From assembly GCA_903919615.1 (NCBI GenBank), contig CAIXIX010000398.1, positions 1 through 42,730 on the forward strand: DNA of 42,730 nt, given 5' to 3'. Positions 25,699 to 35,357 of the stretch are shown here, piece by piece. Positions within the stretch are counted from its first letter, which is position 1. Each line of letters opens with the position of its first letter. This DNA is from an uncultured Chthonomonas sp. (GTDB lineage: Bacteria; Armatimonadota; Chthonomonadetes; Chthonomonadales; Chthonomonadaceae). The translations under genes and the position numbers were made by a program. The notes below the pieces were generated by a model. The model was given only the letters and a program-made list of their open reading frames with translations. It did no database searches and had not been told where the DNA came from.

Positions 25699-26388
25699 CT
25701 AAAACGCGCTCACGATCGCAGGCACCTTTGTCACATTCTCAACAACGTGCGTATGCTTATAAGGCAATAGCTCCTCACGGGTATGGGAACCTTCGGTCAC
25801 ACCAATAATCAACGCGCAATTGGCGGATTCGCCCTCTTGCAGATCGGACGGTGTGTCGCCCACCTTGGCGACCTGATCTGTGCTTTCGACCCCCATTAGC
25901 TCCATAGCCCGATAGATCATATCCGGGTAGGGACGGCCGTGCACCACCTCGTCGCTCGTTACAGTAATGTCAACCAGTTCGCTGCCAACACCCCAGCCAA
26001 ACCGATCGAGGATTGTATCGGCCACATCACGGCTGAAACCCGTATCGAGACCGACTTTTATGCCTAGCGCCTTCAATTCGAGAAACGCCTGCTCGGCGCC
26101 TTCGATCGGTTTCACCTCATCCGCGTTACGGTAGTAAGAGATCATGATCTTGCGGAACGCATTGAAGATCAAGGTAGTCTCCTGGTCGGCGTCGGTTCCG
26201 GTAAGAGCTGTGTAACAGTCTATCATGTGACGGATGGCTACCGGTTTAGCGATTCCCATCACGCGATTGATATCTTCTCGCGTTGCAGGAATACACCTCT
26301 GATGCAAGGCCTCCTGAAGGCATCGGTTTACTGCATCGCCGTCGTAAACAGTGGTTCCAGCCATATCGAATACCACGAGTTTGATCAT
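25699..26388 (-). CDS. Phosphonatase-like HAD hydrolase (PhnX-like)
   Basis: A 229-residue HAD protein. Motif I is VVFDMAGTTV, with Ala in place of the second Asp, as in phosphonoacetaldehyde hydrolases. A cap Lys in VMGIAKPVAIRHM is placed where phosphonatase forms its Schiff base with substrate. Motif II is GLDTGFS and the C-terminal acidic motif is KVGDTPSDL. It belongs to the phosphonatase-like group (TIGR03351). It probably cleaves the C-P bond of phosphonoacetaldehyde or a relative. Its ATG overlaps the stop of the upstream FAD oxidoreductase gene by four bases. Confidence 0.85.
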   Translation of the reverse strand: MIKLVVFDMAGTTVYDGDAVNRCLQEALHQRCIPATREDINRVMGIAKPVAIRHMIDCYTALTGTDADQETTLIFNAFRKIMISYYRNADEVKPIEGAEQAFLELKALGIKVGLDTGFSRDVADTILDRFGWGVGSELVDITVTSDEVVHGRPYPDMIYRAMELMGVESTDQVAKVGDTPSDLQEGESANCALIIGVTEGSHTREELLPYKHTHVVENVTKVPAIVSAF

Positions 26389-27584
26389 TGCAGCCGCTCC
26401 CCTACATTCTGGCGATGACGCTCGACACCAGCTTCTGACAATGAACTCAACACGATGCGCTCGGCGACGCCAAACGAAAGTGTCATTCCTGCGCCACCCA
26501 GCCCTGTCACGATCGTGGTATCAGCATCCGGATTTGCGATGACATAGGGCTCGGTCGGGTGCTTCGCGTATATTCCATGCCACCGTTGGGCAATTGATAG
26601 ATTGGGAATATCAACAAACGTCTTCAAGTAATCGAGGATGTAGGAGTCGATCTCCTCGCGATTGAAAGGCTCGACGTACTGCCCGTACTCATGAGAATCG
26701 CCAAGTACGACTTCGTCGCGGCCATTTTGCGATGTCATGACGTGGATACCAAAGCGGTCAAAATCGGGCAATTCGGAAGAAAATCGTTTGCGTACTTCTG
26801 GAAGAGATGGACAGGTCTCAAAAGCCTTATAGTGGCGAAGTGTCGATCCCGCTGCAAGCATTGGGCCAATGCGCGCTCCATCCCGGGTTGGGTTGGTCCG
26901 CATCATTTGAAGCTTACATCGCGTCAGCCCCAATGATTGAATCACTTCAGGATAGAGAAGGTGGAACTCGTCCCCGGAACAAACCCATAAGTGAGCGGCT
27001 TCAATGGCGCGGCTGCCTGTTCTAACGTAGGGCGAAAAATGACCCGTAACTGTTTCGCCATAGTGAAACACAACTCCGTACGTTTGCGAGAGCCAGCCAG
27101 GCAGTTTGGCTATTACCTCACGTGGATCAACGCAAATCTCCGTTGGGCTCCACATGCCGCCAATAAGCTTCGACTGAACTACGGAAGACGCGCGGAGGCC
27201 AATCTGCCCCGGATCTTCAAGAGCACATTCGTATCCGTGGTTTCCAGCCTCGTCAAGGAATTCACGCAGGACCCGCGCCTCATCCTCATGATATGCGAGA
27301 TGAAGGGAGCCACACGGGTCGAACCAGATTCCACTCCGCCCAAGAACATCAAGCCATATCTCACGGCTGCGCATTGCAAGCAGTCTCATTGGGCCAAATG
27401 GCTGCCCAATTGGCCAGATCATTCCGAAATTCCGAATGGAGGCGCCGCACGCCTGAGGTGCACGCTCAATGACTACGACGCGCTGTCCGGCGCGCGCAAG
27501 ATGATAGGCATGCGCCAATCCAATGATCCCCGCGCCAACAACTGCATCGTCAAACGCAGTATCTGATTGTCTGGTTACACCCAT
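26385..27584 (-). CDS. FAD-dependent oxidoreductase of phosphonate catabolism (TIGR03364-like)
   Basis: A 399-residue DAO-family flavoprotein. The dinucleotide-binding motif VVGAGIIGLAHAYHLARAG lies near the N-terminus. ASIRNFGMIWPIGQP is the signature of the subgroup found beside phosphonatase-like hydrolases. The C-terminus closes with TIVTGLGGAGMTLSFGVAE. Members oxidise amino- or N-methylaminoalkylphosphonates to phosphonoacetaldehyde, which fits its coupling (ATGA) to the phosphonatase-like gene. GGAGGG is about 10 bases before the ATG. No C-P transporter genes are in the window. Confidence 0.85.
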   Translation of the reverse strand: MGVTRQSDTAFDDAVVGAGIIGLAHAYHLARAGQRVVVIERAPQACGASIRNFGMIWPIGQPFGPMRLLAMRSREIWLDVLGRSGIWFDPCGSLHLAYHEDEARVLREFLDEAGNHGYECALEDPGQIGLRASSVVQSKLIGGMWSPTEICVDPREVIAKLPGWLSQTYGVVFHYGETVTGHFSPYVRTGSRAIEAAHLWVCSGDEFHLLYPEVIQSLGLTRCKLQMMRTNPTRDGARIGPMLAAGSTLRHYKAFETCPSLPEVRKRFSSELPDFDRFGIHVMTSQNGRDEVVLGDSHEYGQYVEPFNREEIDSYILDYLKTFVDIPNLSIAQRWHGIYAKHPTEPYVIANPDADTTIVTGLGGAGMTLSFGVAERIVLSSLSEAGVERHRQNVGERLQ

Positions 27585-27676: not shown

Positions 27677-29131
27677 TTAAGGCTTGGCCAACGAGTGCGC
27701 CTTCATCAGTTCAAGCGATTCGAGCGCTCTCGCTCGTGCATAGTCATGTTCGACTATACGATCCGGATAATCTGTCGAAGTTGCCAGCAGAGGGAAGCGC
27801 CACGGCTCATGAATTACTGAAGCCGAAAGCTCAGCCAACTCAGGCACCCAGTGTCTGATATACGACGAGGTCGGATCAAATTTTTCAGACTGACTCACAG
27901 GATTGAAGATGCGAAAGTAGGGCGCAGCGTCTGCGCCGCAGCCTGCCACCCACTGCCAGCCAAGTGTGTTATTTGCGAGATCTGCATCTACAAGCGTATC
28001 CCAAAACCACTTTGCGCCCTCCTGCCAGGGGATCAGCAGGTCTTTAACAAGGAACGAAGCGACCACCATTCGAACTCGATTGTGCATGTATCCCGTCCGC
28101 CACAGCTCCCTCATTCCTGCATCCACGAGGGGATAGCCCGTGCGACCCTGACACCACGCAGTTTTCATTTCTGGGTCGTTATCCCACGGGAAGTCGGCGA
28201 ATTCTGACCGTAATGGCTGATCGACTGTGTGCGGATAGTGGTAGAGCAGATGGTGCGCAAACTCCCGCCAGATGAGCTGCCGAATATACCCTTCATGTGA
28301 GGACGAAGAGACGGAGCCAAGGGCTGCGCGATTTACCGCCGAAACCACCTGACGCGGACTAATTTCACCAAAGTGCAAAAATGGCGATAGACGGCTAACA
28401 CCTTCCGTAGCCGGCATATCACGTTGCTCTAGATAGCTGACAGCTGCGCCGTTAGCAAACGTAGCAAGCCGTTTCTGAGCCGAAAATTCACCGGGTGTCC
28501 AAGTCTCGTCCAACCCATCTGCCCAGTCGATCCGTGGCAAGAGTCTCAGGTCTTCTACGGCTACGCTAGCCGGCCATTCGCTGGGCGAACGCACCCTCGA
28601 TGGCGCAGCGATTGGACTGGTTTCGCCCCAGGACGAAAGGCAAGCCCGATAAAAGGGAGTAAAAACACGATAGGGCGTACCCGAAGCCGTCGCAATGCTG
28701 GTAGGCTCAAATAGCAGACTGTTGTTGACAGCACGGACATCGATCCGATTGGCTATCAGTTCACTTTCAACCATCCTTTGCTGATGGATCGCTGCCGGTT
28801 CCCACCGCCGACTGTAGATTAGCGCAGTCGCGCCGAATTCCGCCGCAACGGCACTCAGTTCACGAGCAGCAGGGCCGGTGCGAAGGATGAGCTTAGAGCC
28901 CAACTCATTAAGAGTTGCCGACAGCGACAACAATGAATGATGCAGCCACCAGCGCGAGGCCGCCCCTGGCGACCACGCACCTTCCTCATCTGGGCTATAG
29001 ACAAACACAGGAATTACAGGTCGTTTTGAGTCTACTGCAAGTGCGAGAGACGCATTGTCCGAAACGCGCAGGTCGTTTCGCAGCCATACAATCACTGGGC
29101 CCGTACCGGAATTTTCATGAGTCACGCTCAT
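27677..29131 (-). CDS. phrB: Deoxyribodipyrimidine photolyase
   Basis: A 484-residue class I CPD photolyase that repairs UV-induced pyrimidine dimers with light, using FAD. The N-terminal antenna domain starts VIVWLRNDLRVSDN. The FAD-binding C-terminal part has EGYIRQLIWREFAHHLLYH, GRTGYPLVDAGMRELW, GYMHNRVRMVVASFLVKDL and DADLANNTLGWQWVAG. The ATG at 29131 is preferred: GGAG lies about 10 bases ahead and conserved sequence begins soon after. It overlaps the desaturase gene by 17 bases, so the two are cotranscribed. Confidence 0.92.
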   Translation of the reverse strand: MSVTHENSGTGPVIVWLRNDLRVSDNASLALAVDSKRPVIPVFVYSPDEEGAWSPGAASRWWLHHSLLSLSATLNELGSKLILRTGPAARELSAVAAEFGATALIYSRRWEPAAIHQQRMVESELIANRIDVRAVNNSLLFEPTSIATASGTPYRVFTPFYRACLSSWGETSPIAAPSRVRSPSEWPASVAVEDLRLLPRIDWADGLDETWTPGEFSAQKRLATFANGAAVSYLEQRDMPATEGVSRLSPFLHFGEISPRQVVSAVNRAALGSVSSSSHEGYIRQLIWREFAHHLLYHYPHTVDQPLRSEFADFPWDNDPEMKTAWCQGRTGYPLVDAGMRELWRTGYMHNRVRMVVASFLVKDLLIPWQEGAKWFWDTLVDADLANNTLGWQWVAGCGADAAPYFRIFNPVSQSEKFDPTSSYIRHWVPELAELSASVIHEPWRFPLLATSTDYPDRIVEHDYARARALESLELMKAHSLAKP

Positions 29132-30026
29132 TTGAACTAGCTCCATACAGCGGCAGGTTTTGCTGCCTGCCACCACGCTCTCCACGCAGTACATGCTCAG
29201 GAACAGGCTTCAAGTCCCAGACAACTTGGGTCCATGAAAGCGCCCTCAGCACAAGGTAAGTGATATCTAGTTCCCACCAGAAGAACCCCTGGCGCGCAGA
29301 CGCCATGAAGTAGTGGTGATTATTGTGCCAGCCCTCGCCAAGCGTGAAGATTGCTAACAACCAGTTGTTACGTGATCCATCGCCCGTATCGTAGCGTTGG
29401 CTGCCTAAAATGTGTGCAAGGCTATTGATACAGAAGGTCGCGTGATACAGGGCAACCGTACTCCAGATCATCCCAACGACGAGCCCAGATGGACCTGCAA
29501 TCAGATAACATGTTGCCGACAGCAACAGCGCTGGAACGTAGATATGGTTGTCCAGCCAGACAAGTTCCGGGTACCGGGTTAGGTCCTTAATGTTATCGTA
29601 AGAGGTTTTTCCGCGGCTGGCCGTATAGACCCAGCCAATATGAGCAAACAAGAAGCCAAACCGCAAAGGAGAGTGAACGTCCAGTTCGGTATCGGAATGG
29701 CGGTGATGTGCACGATGTTTCGAGGCCCACCACAGCACCCCACCCTGTGCGGCGCTCTGCCCAATAAATGCAAGGATGAACTGGAATGCGCGCCCGGTCT
29801 TAAAGGCGCGGTGTGAAAAATATCTGTGCAGCCCGGCTGTTATTCCGAACATGCGAATAACGTAGAGCGCTGCCGCCAGCAGCAGCGCTCTGCGTGACAC
29901 ACCGGTCCACAAAGCAGCAAAACAGGCAAGATGTACGATCAGAAAGGGCGCAGCGTCCGCAAATCTTATGGGTTCTGGCCACTTCGCTGAAAGCGTTGAT
30001 CTTATCTTTTGAGTTGTATTTGACAT
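29115..30026 (-). CDS. Fatty acid (delta-9 type) desaturase
   Basis: A 303-residue membrane di-iron desaturase. The three histidine boxes are seen: HRYFSH (about 67-72), HRAHH (about 104-108) and HNNHH (about 236-240), with hydrophobic segments between them. The layout matches acyl-CoA/acyl-lipid delta-9 desaturases. It makes the cis double bond that CFA-type methyltransferases use, and those are encoded by the divergent operon starting at 30202. So membrane-lipid modification is a shared theme of the locus. Confidence 0.9.
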   Translation of the reverse strand: MSNTTQKIRSTLSAKWPEPIRFADAAPFLIVHLACFAALWTGVSRRALLLAAALYVIRMFGITAGLHRYFSHRAFKTGRAFQFILAFIGQSAAQGGVLWWASKHRAHHRHSDTELDVHSPLRFGFLFAHIGWVYTASRGKTSYDNIKDLTRYPELVWLDNHIYVPALLLSATCYLIAGPSGLVVGMIWSTVALYHATFCINSLAHILGSQRYDTGDGSRNNWLLAIFTLGEGWHNNHHYFMASARQGFFWWELDITYLVLRALSWTQVVWDLKPVPEHVLRGERGGRQQNLPLYGASSNERDS

Positions 30027-30095
30027 TATTACTTTGGTCTAAACACATTTCACATACTCGTCGAAATGCGTGTTAACTGTTGATCAATTGTCCAT

Positions 30096-30101
30096 ATTAT
30101 A
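30096..30101 (-). promoter_or_regulatory. Candidate -10 box for the desaturase-photolyase operon
   Basis: On the minus strand the hexamer TATAAT lies about 70 bases ahead of the desaturase ATG. A matching -35 at 17 bases is weak (TATTTG). A palindrome TTGATCAA (30080-30087) follows the box downstream and could be an operator. Confidence 0.4.
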
Positions 30102-30149
30102 CGGTTAGATATTGCTCAAATAGCCAACAATTCTGATAATAAATATCGA

Positions 30150-30182
30150 TTGCACATATCTTGTCTACTTTTTGTCTAATAT
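30150..30182 (+). promoter_or_regulatory. Three 11-bp direct repeats, candidate CarH/LitR-type operator
   Basis: TTGCACATATC, TTGTCTACTTT and TTGTCTAATAT follow each other with exactly 11-base periodicity. The third includes a TAATAT -10-like box 20 bases upstream of the ATG at 30202. CarH, the B12-dependent light sensor of the MerR family, is known to bind 11-bp direct repeats of the form TNTACA-like across a promoter. Here the core is TTGNNNA. No MerR-family gene is in the window, so the regulator is inferred. Confidence 0.4.
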
Positions 30183-30201: not shown

Positions 30202-31449
30202 ATGAAGATTGCAGTGATTGGTAGCGGGATTTCGGGATTGGCAGCCTGCCACTATCTGGCCGAACACCATAGCATTACTGTTTATGAGTCCAGCCAGAAG
30301 CCTGGAGGTCATGTTCTTACACAATTTGTGGAGACGCCGAATGGTCCTATTGGCTTGGATATGGGATTTATTGTTTACAACGAGCGTAACTACCCTCTGT
30401 TCAACCGCTTGCTTGGTGAACTCAACATCACAACGCATGCGTCGGATATGTCGTTTGGCGTTCGAAACGACATCACAGGAATAGAGTATGCAGGCAGGTC
30501 TTTCGACACGCTATTTGCCGACAAGCGTAATCTGCTCAAAGCATCGCACTGGCGCATGCTGAACGATATCAGTTGGTTTATGCGGGATGCGACGTCGCAG
30601 CGCAATGCGTTTCCGGATGATACGGTCGACCAGTTCTTAAGTCGTCATGACTACTCAGATGCGTTTGCTGAAGGCTTTCTTCTGCCACTCGGCGCCGCCC
30701 TCTGGTCCTGCCCTACACAAGCGCTGAGAAATTATTCGGTTAGCTTTGTGATTGACTTTTTGGCCAACCATGCGATGCTAACGCTCAAAGACCGACCGGT
30801 GTGGCGGGTTGTCACAGGAGGTTCACAAAAATATGTGGATCGCCTTGTCGCAACATCCATGGCAGAATTCCGCTGCAACCGTTCGGTTGATAGCATCGTG
30901 CGGACGGGGACCGGGATTCGCGTATATTCAGGCTCAGTGTCTGAGACATTTGATGAAGCGATCATCGCGTGCCACTCGAATCAGGCGCTTGCCCTGCTCA
31001 AACAACCAACTCAAACGGAGACAGAAGTGCTGGGGGCGATAGAATACCAGGCTAACGACGTGTGTCTCCACACAGATGACAGCGTAATGCCAGTAAATCG
31101 CAAAGCGTGGGCTAGTTGGAACTACCACGTTCGCGGCGATGGCGCATCTACTCAACAATCCGTCGTCACGTACAACTTGAACTTGCTGCAGGGGATTAAG
31201 TCGGACGTGACCTATTGCGTGTCACTGAACCAGACAGAATACATCGATCCTTCGGCAATAATCGCAAGAAGCACGCTCCACCATCCGGCAGCAACAGTCG
31301 CAGGCGTTGCAGCACGCAAGCGTAGAGCCGAACTTATCCGACATGAGGGAATATCATACTGCGGAGCCTACTGGGGATATGGATTTCATGAAGATGGCGC
31401 CCGTTCTGGAATTGAAGTTGCGCGCGCATTTGAGGGAACGTCCGCATGA
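30202..31449 (+). CDS. FAD/NAD(P)-binding protein (COG2907-like), lipid operon gene 1
   Basis: A 415-residue amine-oxidase-type flavoprotein: MKIAVIGSGISGLAACHYLAE at the N-terminus, SQKPGGHV binding-site segment, and C-terminal SYCGAYWGYGFHEDGARSG. The family is found with DUF1365 and CFA-synthase-like enzymes in photo-oxidative-stress or light-induced regulons. Some members act on methylated fatty acids. The start ATG 30202 is chosen because the Rossmann motif begins immediately. An in-frame upstream start at 30172 overlaps the putative operator. Its stop overlaps the next ATG as ATGA. Confidence 0.85.
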   Translation: MKIAVIGSGISGLAACHYLAEHHSITVYESSQKPGGHVLTQFVETPNGPIGLDMGFIVYNERNYPLFNRLLGELNITTHASDMSFGVRNDITGIEYAGRSFDTLFADKRNLLKASHWRMLNDISWFMRDATSQRNAFPDDTVDQFLSRHDYSDAFAEGFLLPLGAALWSCPTQALRNYSVSFVIDFLANHAMLTLKDRPVWRVVTGGSQKYVDRLVATSMAEFRCNRSVDSIVRTGTGIRVYSGSVSETFDEAIIACHSNQALALLKQPTQTETEVLGAIEYQANDVCLHTDDSVMPVNRKAWASWNYHVRGDGASTQQSVVTYNLNLLQGIKSDVTYCVSLNQTEYIDPSAIIARSTLHHPAATVAGVAARKRRAELIRHEGISYCGAYWGYGFHEDGARSGIEVARAFEGTSA

Positions 31450-32210
31450 CACTTGACGTCGGTTCAGCTATCTACTTAGGTACGGTGCGACACCGCAGAT
31501 TCTCGCCGGTGATGCACGAATTCCGGTACCGGCTCTATATGGTTTGCCTGAATCTCGAACATCTGGAATCGCCGTCCGAATATCCATCAGCACGTTTACT
31601 GCGGGGAGGCTTTAAAAGGTCGGATCACCTCGGCGACGTTAACGTTCCATTAACGCAGGCTGTATCGAACCTCGTAAAGGAGCGTCTGGGGTTTGCGCTG
31701 GGCGGCCCCATTCTCTTGTTAACCAATCTCCGGAATTTGGGCTATGTAATGAATCCTGTCAGTTTTTACTATTGCGTTTCTGCGGACCTCAACTCAGTGG
31801 AAGCAATCGTCGCGGAGATAAACAACACGCCATGGGGAGAGCGATACTGCTACGTTTTGGACCGCAGAGGCGGAAAGTCGGCGCATGACTTCCCCAAACT
31901 GTTTCACGTTTCGCCATTCATGCCAATGGACCAGGATTACCGATGGCGGTTTACCGAACCCCGCAAGTCGATAGCGATTCATATGGAAAACCGGAAGGAT
32001 GGTATTAAGGTCTTTGACGCAACGTTAGCACTGAAGCGCTTAAGTGCTGACAATGCTAATACAAGAAAAGTACATCTCGCCTACCCTCTCATTACGTTCA
32101 AGGTACTTTTCGGGATCTACTTTCAGGCGCTTCGCCTATGGCTAAAGCGGTGTCCCTACTATCCCCATCCTCGAAAAATCGTAACAACAACTCGGGGGCC
32201 ACAGTCATGA
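31446..32210 (+). CDS. DUF1365 protein, lipid operon gene 2
   Basis: A 254-residue protein with DUF1365 features: GTVRHRRFSPVMHEFRYRLYMV, ILLLTNLRNLGYVMNPVSFYYC, AIVAEINNTPWGERYCYVL and FHVSPFMPMDQDYRW. The function is unknown. The family is genetically tied to COG2907 flavoproteins and CFA-synthase-type methyltransferases, both adjacent here with ATGA overlaps on both sides. Confidence 0.9.
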   Translation: MTLDVGSAIYLGTVRHRRFSPVMHEFRYRLYMVCLNLEHLESPSEYPSARLLRGGFKRSDHLGDVNVPLTQAVSNLVKERLGFALGGPILLLTNLRNLGYVMNPVSFYYCVSADLNSVEAIVAEINNTPWGERYCYVLDRRGGKSAHDFPKLFHVSPFMPMDQDYRWRFTEPRKSIAIHMENRKDGIKVFDATLALKRLSADNANTRKVHLAYPLITFKVLFGIYFQALRLWLKRCPYYPHPRKIVTTTRGPQS

Positions 32211-33529
32211 CGGGTCTTGTTGAGCACAATTCGGATCGGCAACCACCGGCCCGCCATCGAGATTTTGTTTTTGATTTGCGCCCGATCGCGTCTGCGCTCC
32301 GAAACGCCGTTTGCAATCGCCTTGCGTCGCTGGATACCGAAGTTGAAATCCGCGAGCAATTACGAAACGACCGCGTTGCTGCCCTGTCTTTGTCAGCCGG
32401 CGGACCACTCGCGATAACCGTTCATGACCCACGATTTTACCGAATAATCGCAATGCATGGTGCTCTAGGAGCCGCCGATGCGTACCGTCGAGGGTTTTGG
32501 ACCTGTAACGATCTGACCTCCCTATTCCGGCTCTTTACGCGGCGGATCGGTAGCGTGTCGCGATTAGAGCGGTCTCTTGCGTGGGCGGCATCAATACCTG
32601 CGTATGCAGCGCACCTAATGCGCCGGAATGGAACGCTAGATGCCCGTAAAAACATTGAAGCGCATTATAATCTCGGCAATGAGTTCTTTTCACTGTTTCT
32701 CGATCCAACCCTAACATACTCCAGTGGCATATTTGAAACTGGCTTGGAGAGCATGCAGGACGCTTCTATCGCAAAGCTGGATCGTATCTGCGCCAAGCTT
32801 CAGCTCGAGCCTGGAATGGAAATTCTGGAGATTGGAACTGGCTGGGGCAGTTTTGCCATCCATGCCGCCCGTAAATATGGATGTCGTGTGACAACTGTCA
32901 CCTTATCTAGCCAACAACTTGAAGAGGCGCAGAAGCGAATCGCGTCGGCAGGTCTGAACGACAGGGTTTCCGCACAACTGCGAGACTACCGCGAAGTTAA
33001 GGGCCAGTTTGACCGAATTGCATCCATTGAGATGATTGAGGCGATCGGTCATCACAGGCTGCCCGAATTCTTCCATACCTGTGCATCCCTTTTAAAAAAC
33101 GATGGGTATATGGCAATCCAGGCTATCACGATGCCCGATCAAGGTTTTGAGGATTACCTGCGCAGGACCGACGTGATCCGCGAATATATCTTTCCAGGAA
33201 GCTGCTGTCCATCCCGACAGGCGATTCTGAACGCCGCTACGTCTGCCTCCGATCTGCGCCTGGTCCACCTGGAAGAGATTGGCCGCCACTATGCTCTTAC
33301 GCTGGCAAAGTGGCGCGGAGCCTTTCTGAGCAATCTTCAGCCAGCAAGAAAGTTGGGATATTCCGACGAGTTCCTGCGTCTATGGCACTTCTATCTCTGT
33401 TACTGTGAAGCAGGCTTTGCCGAGAACCATGTAGGCGACGTGCAATTAGTGTTCTCGAAACCTGGACACGTGCACCGAGATCCGGCCCCGCTGCCTGCCA
33501 TTCAATGCCCAAAGGTGCGTGAACAATGA
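32207..33529 (+). CDS. Cyclopropane-fatty-acid synthase family methyltransferase
   Basis: A 440-residue SAM-dependent enzyme that adds methylene or methyl to unsaturated acyl chains of phospholipids. Motifs: HYNLGNEFFSLFLDPTLTYSS (about 151-171), the SAM site LEIGTGWGSFAIHAARKYG, IASIEMIEAIGHHRLPEFF and YIFPGSCCPS. The length fits the family. ATG 32207 overlaps the DUF1365 stop. A longer frame from 32138 would run into that gene. The desaturase encoded divergently can supply its substrate double bonds. Confidence 0.9.
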   Translation: MTGLVEHNSDRQPPARHRDFVFDLRPIASALRNAVCNRLASLDTEVEIREQLRNDRVAALSLSAGGPLAITVHDPRFYRIIAMHGALGAADAYRRGFWTCNDLTSLFRLFTRRIGSVSRLERSLAWAASIPAYAAHLMRRNGTLDARKNIEAHYNLGNEFFSLFLDPTLTYSSGIFETGLESMQDASIAKLDRICAKLQLEPGMEILEIGTGWGSFAIHAARKYGCRVTTVTLSSQQLEEAQKRIASAGLNDRVSAQLRDYREVKGQFDRIASIEMIEAIGHHRLPEFFHTCASLLKNDGYMAIQAITMPDQGFEDYLRRTDVIREYIFPGSCCPSRQAILNAATSASDLRLVHLEEIGRHYALTLAKWRGAFLSNLQPARKLGYSDEFLRLWHFYLCYCEAGFAENHVGDVQLVFSKPGHVHRDPAPLPAIQCPKVREQ

Positions 33530-34314
33530 TCCCATGGGGAACGATTGCCCTTGTATGGTTTTGCACTGCCATTCTCATGTCCGAGCTCTTCGTGGTTCAA
33601 AGGCGTCTCAAAAATGCGGGAATAGTAGATATTGCATGGAGTGTTTGCACCGCTGCAAGTGGGTGCGTATTTGCAGCAGTAAGCCACGGCGACGTGATAC
33701 GCAGAGTGGTCGTCGCTTTGATGGCGACAATCTGGGGTCTCAGACTTGCCTCGCACCTTCTGGCTCGCTGTCGTCGTGAAACAGAAGACGGCCGCTATAT
33801 TGCACTTCGTGCGAAATGGGGCGCTCGCGCCAACGTAATGATGTTTGGGCTGTACCAGGTACAGGCCCTGTGGGCCGTTCTATTTTCGCTCCCCATGCTC
33901 GCGGCAGCGTGGCCGCGACGCCCATTTTCGACCATTGACATAATCGCGGTTGTCGTCTACCTAGGATCTATAGTAGGCGAGGCCATTGCAGATCGTCAAC
34001 TTGCAGCATTCAAGGCGTCTGGTCCCCGACATAGTGAGGTCTGTCGCACGGGGTTGTGGAGCTGGTCTCGTCACCCGAACTACTTCTTCGAGTGGTTTCA
34101 CTGGCTCGCATACATTTGCCTTGCTTCAGGAACACCACTTATTGGCGTCGCCATCGCGGGCGCCATCGTAATGTTCCTATTCTTAACCAGAGTAACCGGG
34201 GTACCAATGACCGAAGCGCAAGCGATTCGTTCCCGCGGCGATGCGTACCGTAAGTACCAGCGGGAAGTCAGTCCGTTCGTTCCTTTGCCACCAGGGAGGT
34301 TCCACGCTAAATGA
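33526..34314 (+). CDS. DUF1295 membrane protein (steroid 5-alpha-reductase-like fold)
   Basis: A 262-residue polytopic membrane protein. DUF1295 features: NAGIVDIAWS, RETEDGRYIALRAKWG and the conserved GLWSWSRHPNYFFEWFHWLAY, ending with the VTGVPMTEAQAIRSRGDAYR helix. Family members resemble NADPH-dependent reductases or lipid methyltransferases of the endomembrane type. Its place between two CFA-like enzymes suggests reduction or further processing of the modified acyl chain. That is an inference. Confidence 0.85.
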   Translation: MIPWGTIALVWFCTAILMSELFVVQRRLKNAGIVDIAWSVCTAASGCVFAAVSHGDVIRRVVVALMATIWGLRLASHLLARCRRETEDGRYIALRAKWGARANVMMFGLYQVQALWAVLFSLPMLAAAWPRRPFSTIDIIAVVVYLGSIVGEAIADRQLAAFKASGPRHSEVCRTGLWSWSRHPNYFFEWFHWLAYICLASGTPLIGVAIAGAIVMFLFLTRVTGVPMTEAQAIRSRGDAYRKYQREVSPFVPLPPGRFHAK

Positions 34315-35357
34315 GCGCTGTTTCACATGCGGCAGTTATCGCCGCGGAATCGGGTTGGGTGCCTGATAGTTTAATCACACGCGGGATCAAGATGGCCTGT
34401 GGGAATCGGCTATCTGCGATCGAAAAGCAGTTTTCCAGTCTGCCGGGCGTCGCTATGGAAGAGTTTCTGGAAGAGCTTGAGCGAAGCCCGATTGCAGCGG
34501 CAACAGAAACCGCCAATGAACAGCATTATGAGTTGCCGCCAGCTTTTTTCGAAGCCGTGCTTGGACCGCGGTTAAAGTACTCTGGCTGCGAGTGGCCAGC
34601 CGATGTCTGCACGCTCGCCGAGGCAGAAGAGAAGGCGCTCAACACCGCGGTAACGCGGGCACAGATCCTAGATGGAGCAACTATCCTTGAACTTGGATGC
34701 GGATGGGGATCCCTGACTCTCTACATGGCAGAGCGCTTCCCAAACTCACCGATAACTGCGGTCTCAAATTCGGCTCCGCAGCGCGAATTCATAATGAAAC
34801 GAGCTCAGCAGCGCGGAATTAAGAACGTGACTGTTGTTACCGTCGACATCAATGCCTTTGAGCCAGACACGAATGTCCCTTTTGATCGCATTATCAGCAT
34901 CGAGATGCTCGAGCACGTCCGCAACTATCGAGCGCTATTCCGCCGAATCGCGGGATGGCTGGCGGAGGATGGTTTATTGTTCGTGCATATATTCAGGCAC
35001 AAGTGCTATCCATATCTATTCGAAACCGAAGGGGATGGCGACTGGATGGGCCGGCATTTTTTTACAGGTGGCGTCATGCCGTCCCACAATCTGTTAGCCG
35101 ACGCGCAGGACAGCCTAACTCTGGCAAAGTCCTGGGAAATCAATGGGACCCACTACGCGAAAACAGCAGATGCGTGGTTGCGCAACCTCGATTTGAACGA
35201 AGGTCGCATTCGCCCCATCCTGGCTGAGCACTACGGACAATCTGATGCTGGTATATGGCTAAACAGGTGGCGGATGTTCTTTATCGCCTGCAGAGAGCTT
35301 TTTGGTTATCGAGAAGGATCCGAATGGGGCGTATCGCACTACATTTTCACGCATTAA
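34311..35357 (+). CDS. Second CFA-synthase-like SAM methyltransferase
   Basis: A 348-residue methyltransferase. Its layout is that of CFA-synthase relatives: HYELPPAFFEAVLGPRLKYSG, SAM site ILELGCGWGSLTLYMAERFP, FDRIISIEMLEHVRNY and FVHIFRHKCYPYLFE. It lacks the long N-terminal part of the 32207 gene and resembles the subgroup that methylates other acceptors. It ends the operon and is joined to DUF1295 by an ATGA overlap. Confidence 0.85.
   Translation: MSAVSHAAVIAAESGWVPDSLITRGIKMACGNRLSAIEKQFSSLPGVAMEEFLEELERSPIAAATETANEQHYELPPAFFEAVLGPRLKYSGCEWPADVCTLAEAEEKALNTAVTRAQILDGATILELGCGWGSLTLYMAERFPNSPITAVSNSAPQREFIMKRAQQRGIKNVTVVTVDINAFEPDTNVPFDRIISIEMLEHVRNYRALFRRIAGWLAEDGLLFVHIFRHKCYPYLFETEGDGDWMGRHFFTGGVMPSHNLLADAQDSLTLAKSWEINGTHYAKTADAWLRNLDLNEGRIRPILAEHYGQSDAGIWLNRWRMFFIACRELFGYREGSEWGVSHYIFTH

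Follow-up and report, generated by a model that had tools for sequence, protein, structure and literature searches.

A predicted CarH-type operator between divergent photolyase and lipid-modification operons in an uncultured Chthonomonas

The repeat array and the operons around it

The window analysed here, by which we mean the whole stretch of 42,730 nucleotides, holds two divergent operons, and the 175-bp intergenic region between them (32% G+C) carries an array of three tandem 11-bp repeats. The features concerned are the following:

27677..29194, minus strand: DNA photolyase/cryptochrome family gene (PF00875, PF03441), overlapping the 3′ end of the desaturase gene and in the same operon
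29115..30026, minus strand: fatty acid desaturase gene (PF00487), divergent
30077..30098, minus strand: weaker possible second unit pair, AATATGGACAA TTGATCAACAG, nearer the desaturase start
30138..30167, minus strand: alternative promoter candidate, TAGACA (30167-30162), 18 bp, TTTATT (30143-30138), 9/12, by consensus match only
30149..30178, minus strand: candidate promoter of the desaturase–photolyase operon, TAGACA (30178-30173), 18 bp, TGCAAT (30154-30149), 9/12, by consensus match only
30150..30182, minus strand: predicted CarH-type operator of three tandem 11-bp units, on the basis of the published consensus nnnnTnnACAn (PMC9304148); on the plus strand its letters are TTGCACATATC (30150-30160), TTGTCTACTTT (30161-30171) and TTGTCTAATAT (30172-30182)
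30172-30182, minus strand: unit ATATTAGACAA, perfect nnnnTnnACAn
30161-30171, minus strand: unit AAAGTAGACAA, perfect nnnnTnnACAn
30150-30160, minus strand: unit GATATGTGCAA, a pseudorepeat (TnnGCA), one off consensus
30151..30180, plus strand: candidate promoter of the lipid operon, TGCACA, 18 bp, TCTAAT, 9/12, entirely within the repeats, by consensus match only
30202..31449, plus strand: FAD-dependent oxidoreductase of the amine oxidase type, UfaD-like, first gene of the lipid operon
31446..32210, plus strand: DUF1365 protein, of the family of UfaO (furan fatty acid oxygenase)
32138..33529, plus strand: CFA/UfaM-type SAM methyltransferase
33526..34314, plus strand: DUF1295 protein
34311..35357, plus strand: second CFA-type SAM methyltransferase

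Three repeats spaced 11 bases apart and overlapping a -10-like box had been noticed in a preliminary description; they are present in strict register, and the box is TCTAAT at 30175-30180. Known CarH operators consist of three or four tandem 11-bp units nnnnTnnACAn, some of them imperfect (PMC9304148). The array has this make-up: its units lie on the same strand in exact 11-bp register, and two of them are perfect, where at least one would be expected, the third being one position off. Its composition of two direct repeats and one pseudorepeat (2 DR + 1 dr) is thus like that of published CarH operators. The second unit pair may be a chance occurrence; the 33-bp stretch there reaches just 10.9 bits in total with the position weight matrix (PWM) described below.

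On the plus strand, the operon looks like a furan-fatty-acid-type operon because of the families to which its products belong, UfaD being an NAD-FAD protein related to phytoene dehydrogenase, UfaO a protein with DUF1365, and UfaM a SAM methylase (PMC7380195). Beside the photolyase gene, at 25699-27584 on the minus strand, a HAD-family hydrolase gene overlaps a DAO-type FAD oxidoreductase gene, and the two likely form a small separate operon.

The array and chance expectation

AT-rich repeats at a promoter could arise by chance, and the bare pattern taken alone (three tandem nnnnTnnACAn units with at least 11 of 12 positions matched) is just moderately unusual, since 23 of 5000 dinucleotide-shuffled versions of the 175-bp intergenic region also contained it, as did 6 of 60 shuffled whole windows, and the reversed motif used as a control gave one match within the window. 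Against this, a PWM trained on arrays drawn from other genomes only ranks 30150-30182 first in the window, with 31.6 bits, about twice the maximum of 15.3 bits in 60 shuffled windows. Moreover, when the 7.42-Mb genome was searched for triplets of TTGTNNA units in 11-bp register and no more than one mismatch was tolerated, just three loci emerged, two of which are the carH gene and its conserved partner, a fasciclin gene. We therefore regard a chance origin of the array as very improbable. The looser pattern with two mismatches gave 15 sites against 13 for the reversed control, which is no excess, and the additional sites were dropped.

A CarH-type regulator in the same genome

The earlier suggestion of a B12 light-sensor operator made a CarH/LitR homologue a prerequisite, and such a homologue is indeed encoded in the genome. 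Among the five B12-binding proteins found there, a single one, of 302 aa (G000:C456:70278-71183), starts with a MerR helix-turn-helix and is of the CarH type. Its domains, MerR_1 (PF13411), B12-binding_2 (PF02607) and B12-binding (PF02310), give the CarH combination of a MerR DNA-binding domain, a 4-helix B12 cap and a Rossmann B12 domain, and phmmer aligns it over nearly its full length with Thermus CarH 5c8d (6.5e-33). TransRegCarH is its best NCBIfam match (E 3.3e-40), but the score of 138 bits lies below the curated cut-off of 400.

The Wx9EH motif, which contacts the Ado group, is preserved, with W149, E159 and H160 invariant among 15 sequences (the regulator and 14 homologues). The lower-ligand histidine lies in QLHEFG, where the first acidic residue of the (D/E)xHxxG motif is replaced by Gln; H196 and G199 are again invariant in the 15 sequences, and a GG pair is found near the end. 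In Thermus CarH, the histidine after the Trp forms the bis-His light state. At this position the regulator of the present genome has Ala, and its relatives have Arg, Lys, Gln, Ser or other residues; the literature describes this histidine as common in CarH proteins, present in many, yet not universal.

The Ala could point to a CarH paralogue without B12 light sensing (CarA- or class II-like) acting at the site, or to another signal, and it is also true that the B12-free class II LitR proteins of Pseudomonas control a similar set of genes (PMC9758184). Nevertheless, all 15 homologues retain Wx9EH and HxxG, and class II LitR (PplR) sites have the form TGTACA-N12-TGTACA (PMC9758184), a spacing different from that of 30150-30182, where an 11-bp register with TAGACA cores is found and the class II pattern is not. 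We consider this alternative improbable, though less so than a chance array.

Other array-bearing loci in the genome

The preliminary description had advised looking for the same repeats at other promoters, and the triple pattern, no more than one mismatch being allowed, does recur upstream of carH and upstream of one further gene, a fasciclin gene on contig C32. The carH array, located 101-144 bp upstream of the gene (L006:6135-6178, G000:C456), is strong and reverse-oriented, with three perfect units and one imperfect unit. It has no divergent gene here, where the fasciclin gene is on another contig, while its counterpart in relatives serves a divergent fasciclin gene, which suggests that an ancestral locus was split or that the array is a second operator for autoregulation. 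In addition, carH has a weaker forward array over its own -35/-10 region (TTGACG-18-TACAAT). The C32 fasciclin gene (G000:C32) has two oppositely oriented arrays (L007:1490-1522 and L007:1605-1637), a perfect one directed toward the gene and a weaker one directed away from it. Phytoene-synthase-type genes are represented by two adjacent copies (HpnC/D-like by position) and a weak one, and the genome-wide pattern search found no array with 0-1 mismatch near them.

Arrays, carH and target genes in relatives

Genes for carH (E 1e-35 or better) are present in 11 of the 31 genomes of the same order. A fasciclin ortholog adjoins carH in ten of the neighbourhoods examined within the phylum, and the usual arrangement in relatives is a divergent pair of carH and this same fasciclin gene with arrays in between. 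Fasciclin arrays with at least 10 of 12 positions matched precede all nine copies in carH-containing genomes but only one of ten in genomes without carH (Fisher 1.2e-4), the reversed control giving 0-2 matches per region at this threshold; at 11/12, the counts are 7/9 and 1/10 (p 0.005). The one array-bearing fasciclin gene without carH comes from a genome that is 64% complete. Because many of these arrays sit in the shared carH–fasciclin gap, their counts are not independent of those of carH.

In G173 and G174, carH and an array are followed, divergently, by genes for fasciclin, FAD oxidoreductase, DUF1365, CFA, DUF1295 and CFA proteins, which comprise the whole lipid operon of the window. 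In G006 (L108:7483-8934), a photolyase gene comes directly after carH; an in-frame TAG is present in the search match. The FAD operon of G015, whose first protein is 51% identical, begins with 2 DR + 1 dr, the last DR being the -35 element of a promoter TTGACA (17 bp) CATAAT. That the three array loci of the present genome form one regulon is argued most strongly by these arrangements, in which the pieces sit together, and CarH arrays in relatives go with the lipid operon, photolyase and fasciclin genes.

The link between carH and the FAD operon also crosses phyla, as records from Gemmatimonadetes and Ectothiorhodospiraceae (L118:6111-7106 and L136:2450-3330) show carH with arrays near an FAD lipid operon. 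Of the named genomes that possess the FAD operon, those two records alone have arrays linked to carH, the Pseudomonas and Vibrio loci having none. The FAD operon is not always under CarH, given that in three distant relatives it is found without CarH and without arrays. Arrays do not generally lie upstream of photolyase genes: the count was 0 of 18 relatives, in a comparison that took in the window's own photolyase, which is second in its operon.

Orientation of the array and the responding operon

The array had been placed before the lipid operon, which holds as far as position is concerned, the ATG of the FAD gene (30202) lying 19 bp beyond the array end. Yet the region is divergent, and the TnnACA units point toward the minus-strand desaturase–photolyase operon. 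In the arrays of nine fasciclin copies and of the G015 FAD operon, the units point with the gene. Since this is the normal orientation in the clade, the array fits the lipid operon by position only. Relative to the desaturase start, it lies at -156 to -124, resembling the -255 to -107 of most fasciclin arrays, a range outside which its location with respect to the FAD gene (-52 to -20) falls. In both orientation and spacing, the array suits the desaturase–photolyase operon no less than it does the lipid operon, as judged from sequence.

Together with the photolyase gene that follows carH in G006, these features could mean that CarH controls the desaturase–photolyase operon only and that the proximity of the FAD gene is incidental. 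We hold this to be rather unlikely, though a more serious contender than the alternatives discussed above: the repeats enclose a 9/12 plus-strand candidate promoter, and arrays precede the orthologous lipid operons in G015, G173 and G174. With 9/12 candidate promoters within the array on both strands, a single bound CarH complex could block both divergent operons.

Proposed mechanism and comparison with known systems

The consensus match, the carH gene, the arrays elsewhere in the genome and the neighbourhoods in relatives together lend computational support to the B12 light-sensor reading, and 30150-30182 very probably serves as operator for a CarH (class I LitR) repressor that depends on adenosylcobalamin. 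Binding, repression, B12 dependence, release by light and the identity of the responding divergent promoter are what we infer from these data. In the dark, CarH oligomers loaded with AdoCbl would bind the tandem 11-bp units and cover the -35/-10 region, blocking both the desaturase–photolyase operon (minus strand) and the FAD–DUF1365–CFA–DUF1295–CFA operon (plus strand). Light would break the Co–C bond, whereupon CarH would fall apart and leave the DNA, allowing the photolyase and the membrane-lipid-modifying enzymes to be made. CarH would also repress its own gene and the fasciclin gene. Because the repeats match a CarH site and carH is present in the genome, light is likely to induce a photoprotection programme in this bacterium.

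With the CarH systems of Thermus thermophilus and Bacillus megaterium and the myxobacterial operators (PMC9304148), the present one shares a MerR-B12 repressor with Wx9EH and an operator of three or four tandem nnnnTnnACAn units, pseudorepeats allowed; the known operators overlap the -35 or the -10 element. Their targets, however, are carotenoid genes, in contrast to the photolyase, desaturase, lipid-modifying enzymes and fasciclin considered here, and the window's site, unlike theirs, is set in a divergent region. The light-induced class II LitR (PplR/PmlR) regulon of Pseudomonas (PMC9758184) resembles the window in combining photolyase, FAD oxidoreductase and UfaM-type genes, but PplR and PmlR do not sense B12, use LOV proteins and, as described above, recognize a different site. 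The RpoE–ChrR singlet-oxygen regulon of Rhodobacter, which includes ufaM, ufaD and ufaO and whose ufaD/ufaO operon is linked to ChrR, has in common with the window a UfaD-type FAD enzyme, a member of the DUF1365 UfaO family and a UfaM-type methylase; control there is by an ECF sigma/anti-sigma pair rather than by a CarH-type operator (PMC7380195).

CarH operators themselves are already known; what is new lies in the targets, fasciclin and the furan-fatty-acid-like genes. In the literature searched, we found no relevant paper tying CarH or LitR to fasciclin and no report for this lineage, so that B12-based light control would be extended to lipid-modifying enzymes, photolyase and fasciclin. The fasciclin family includes AstaP, a stress-induced carotenoid-binding protein. 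For the broader proposal that, in this phylum, the AdoCbl sensor regulon consists of a secreted fasciclin, a furan-fatty-acid-type lipid operon and photolyase instead of carotenoid genes, with fasciclin as a light-induced photoprotective protein, we see the chances as evenly balanced.

In G015 (L094:6009-6652), a perfect three-unit array precedes a gene for a 184-aa SRPBCC-like protein that is divergent from carH and occupies the usual place of fasciclin, and this gene is likely another CarH target.
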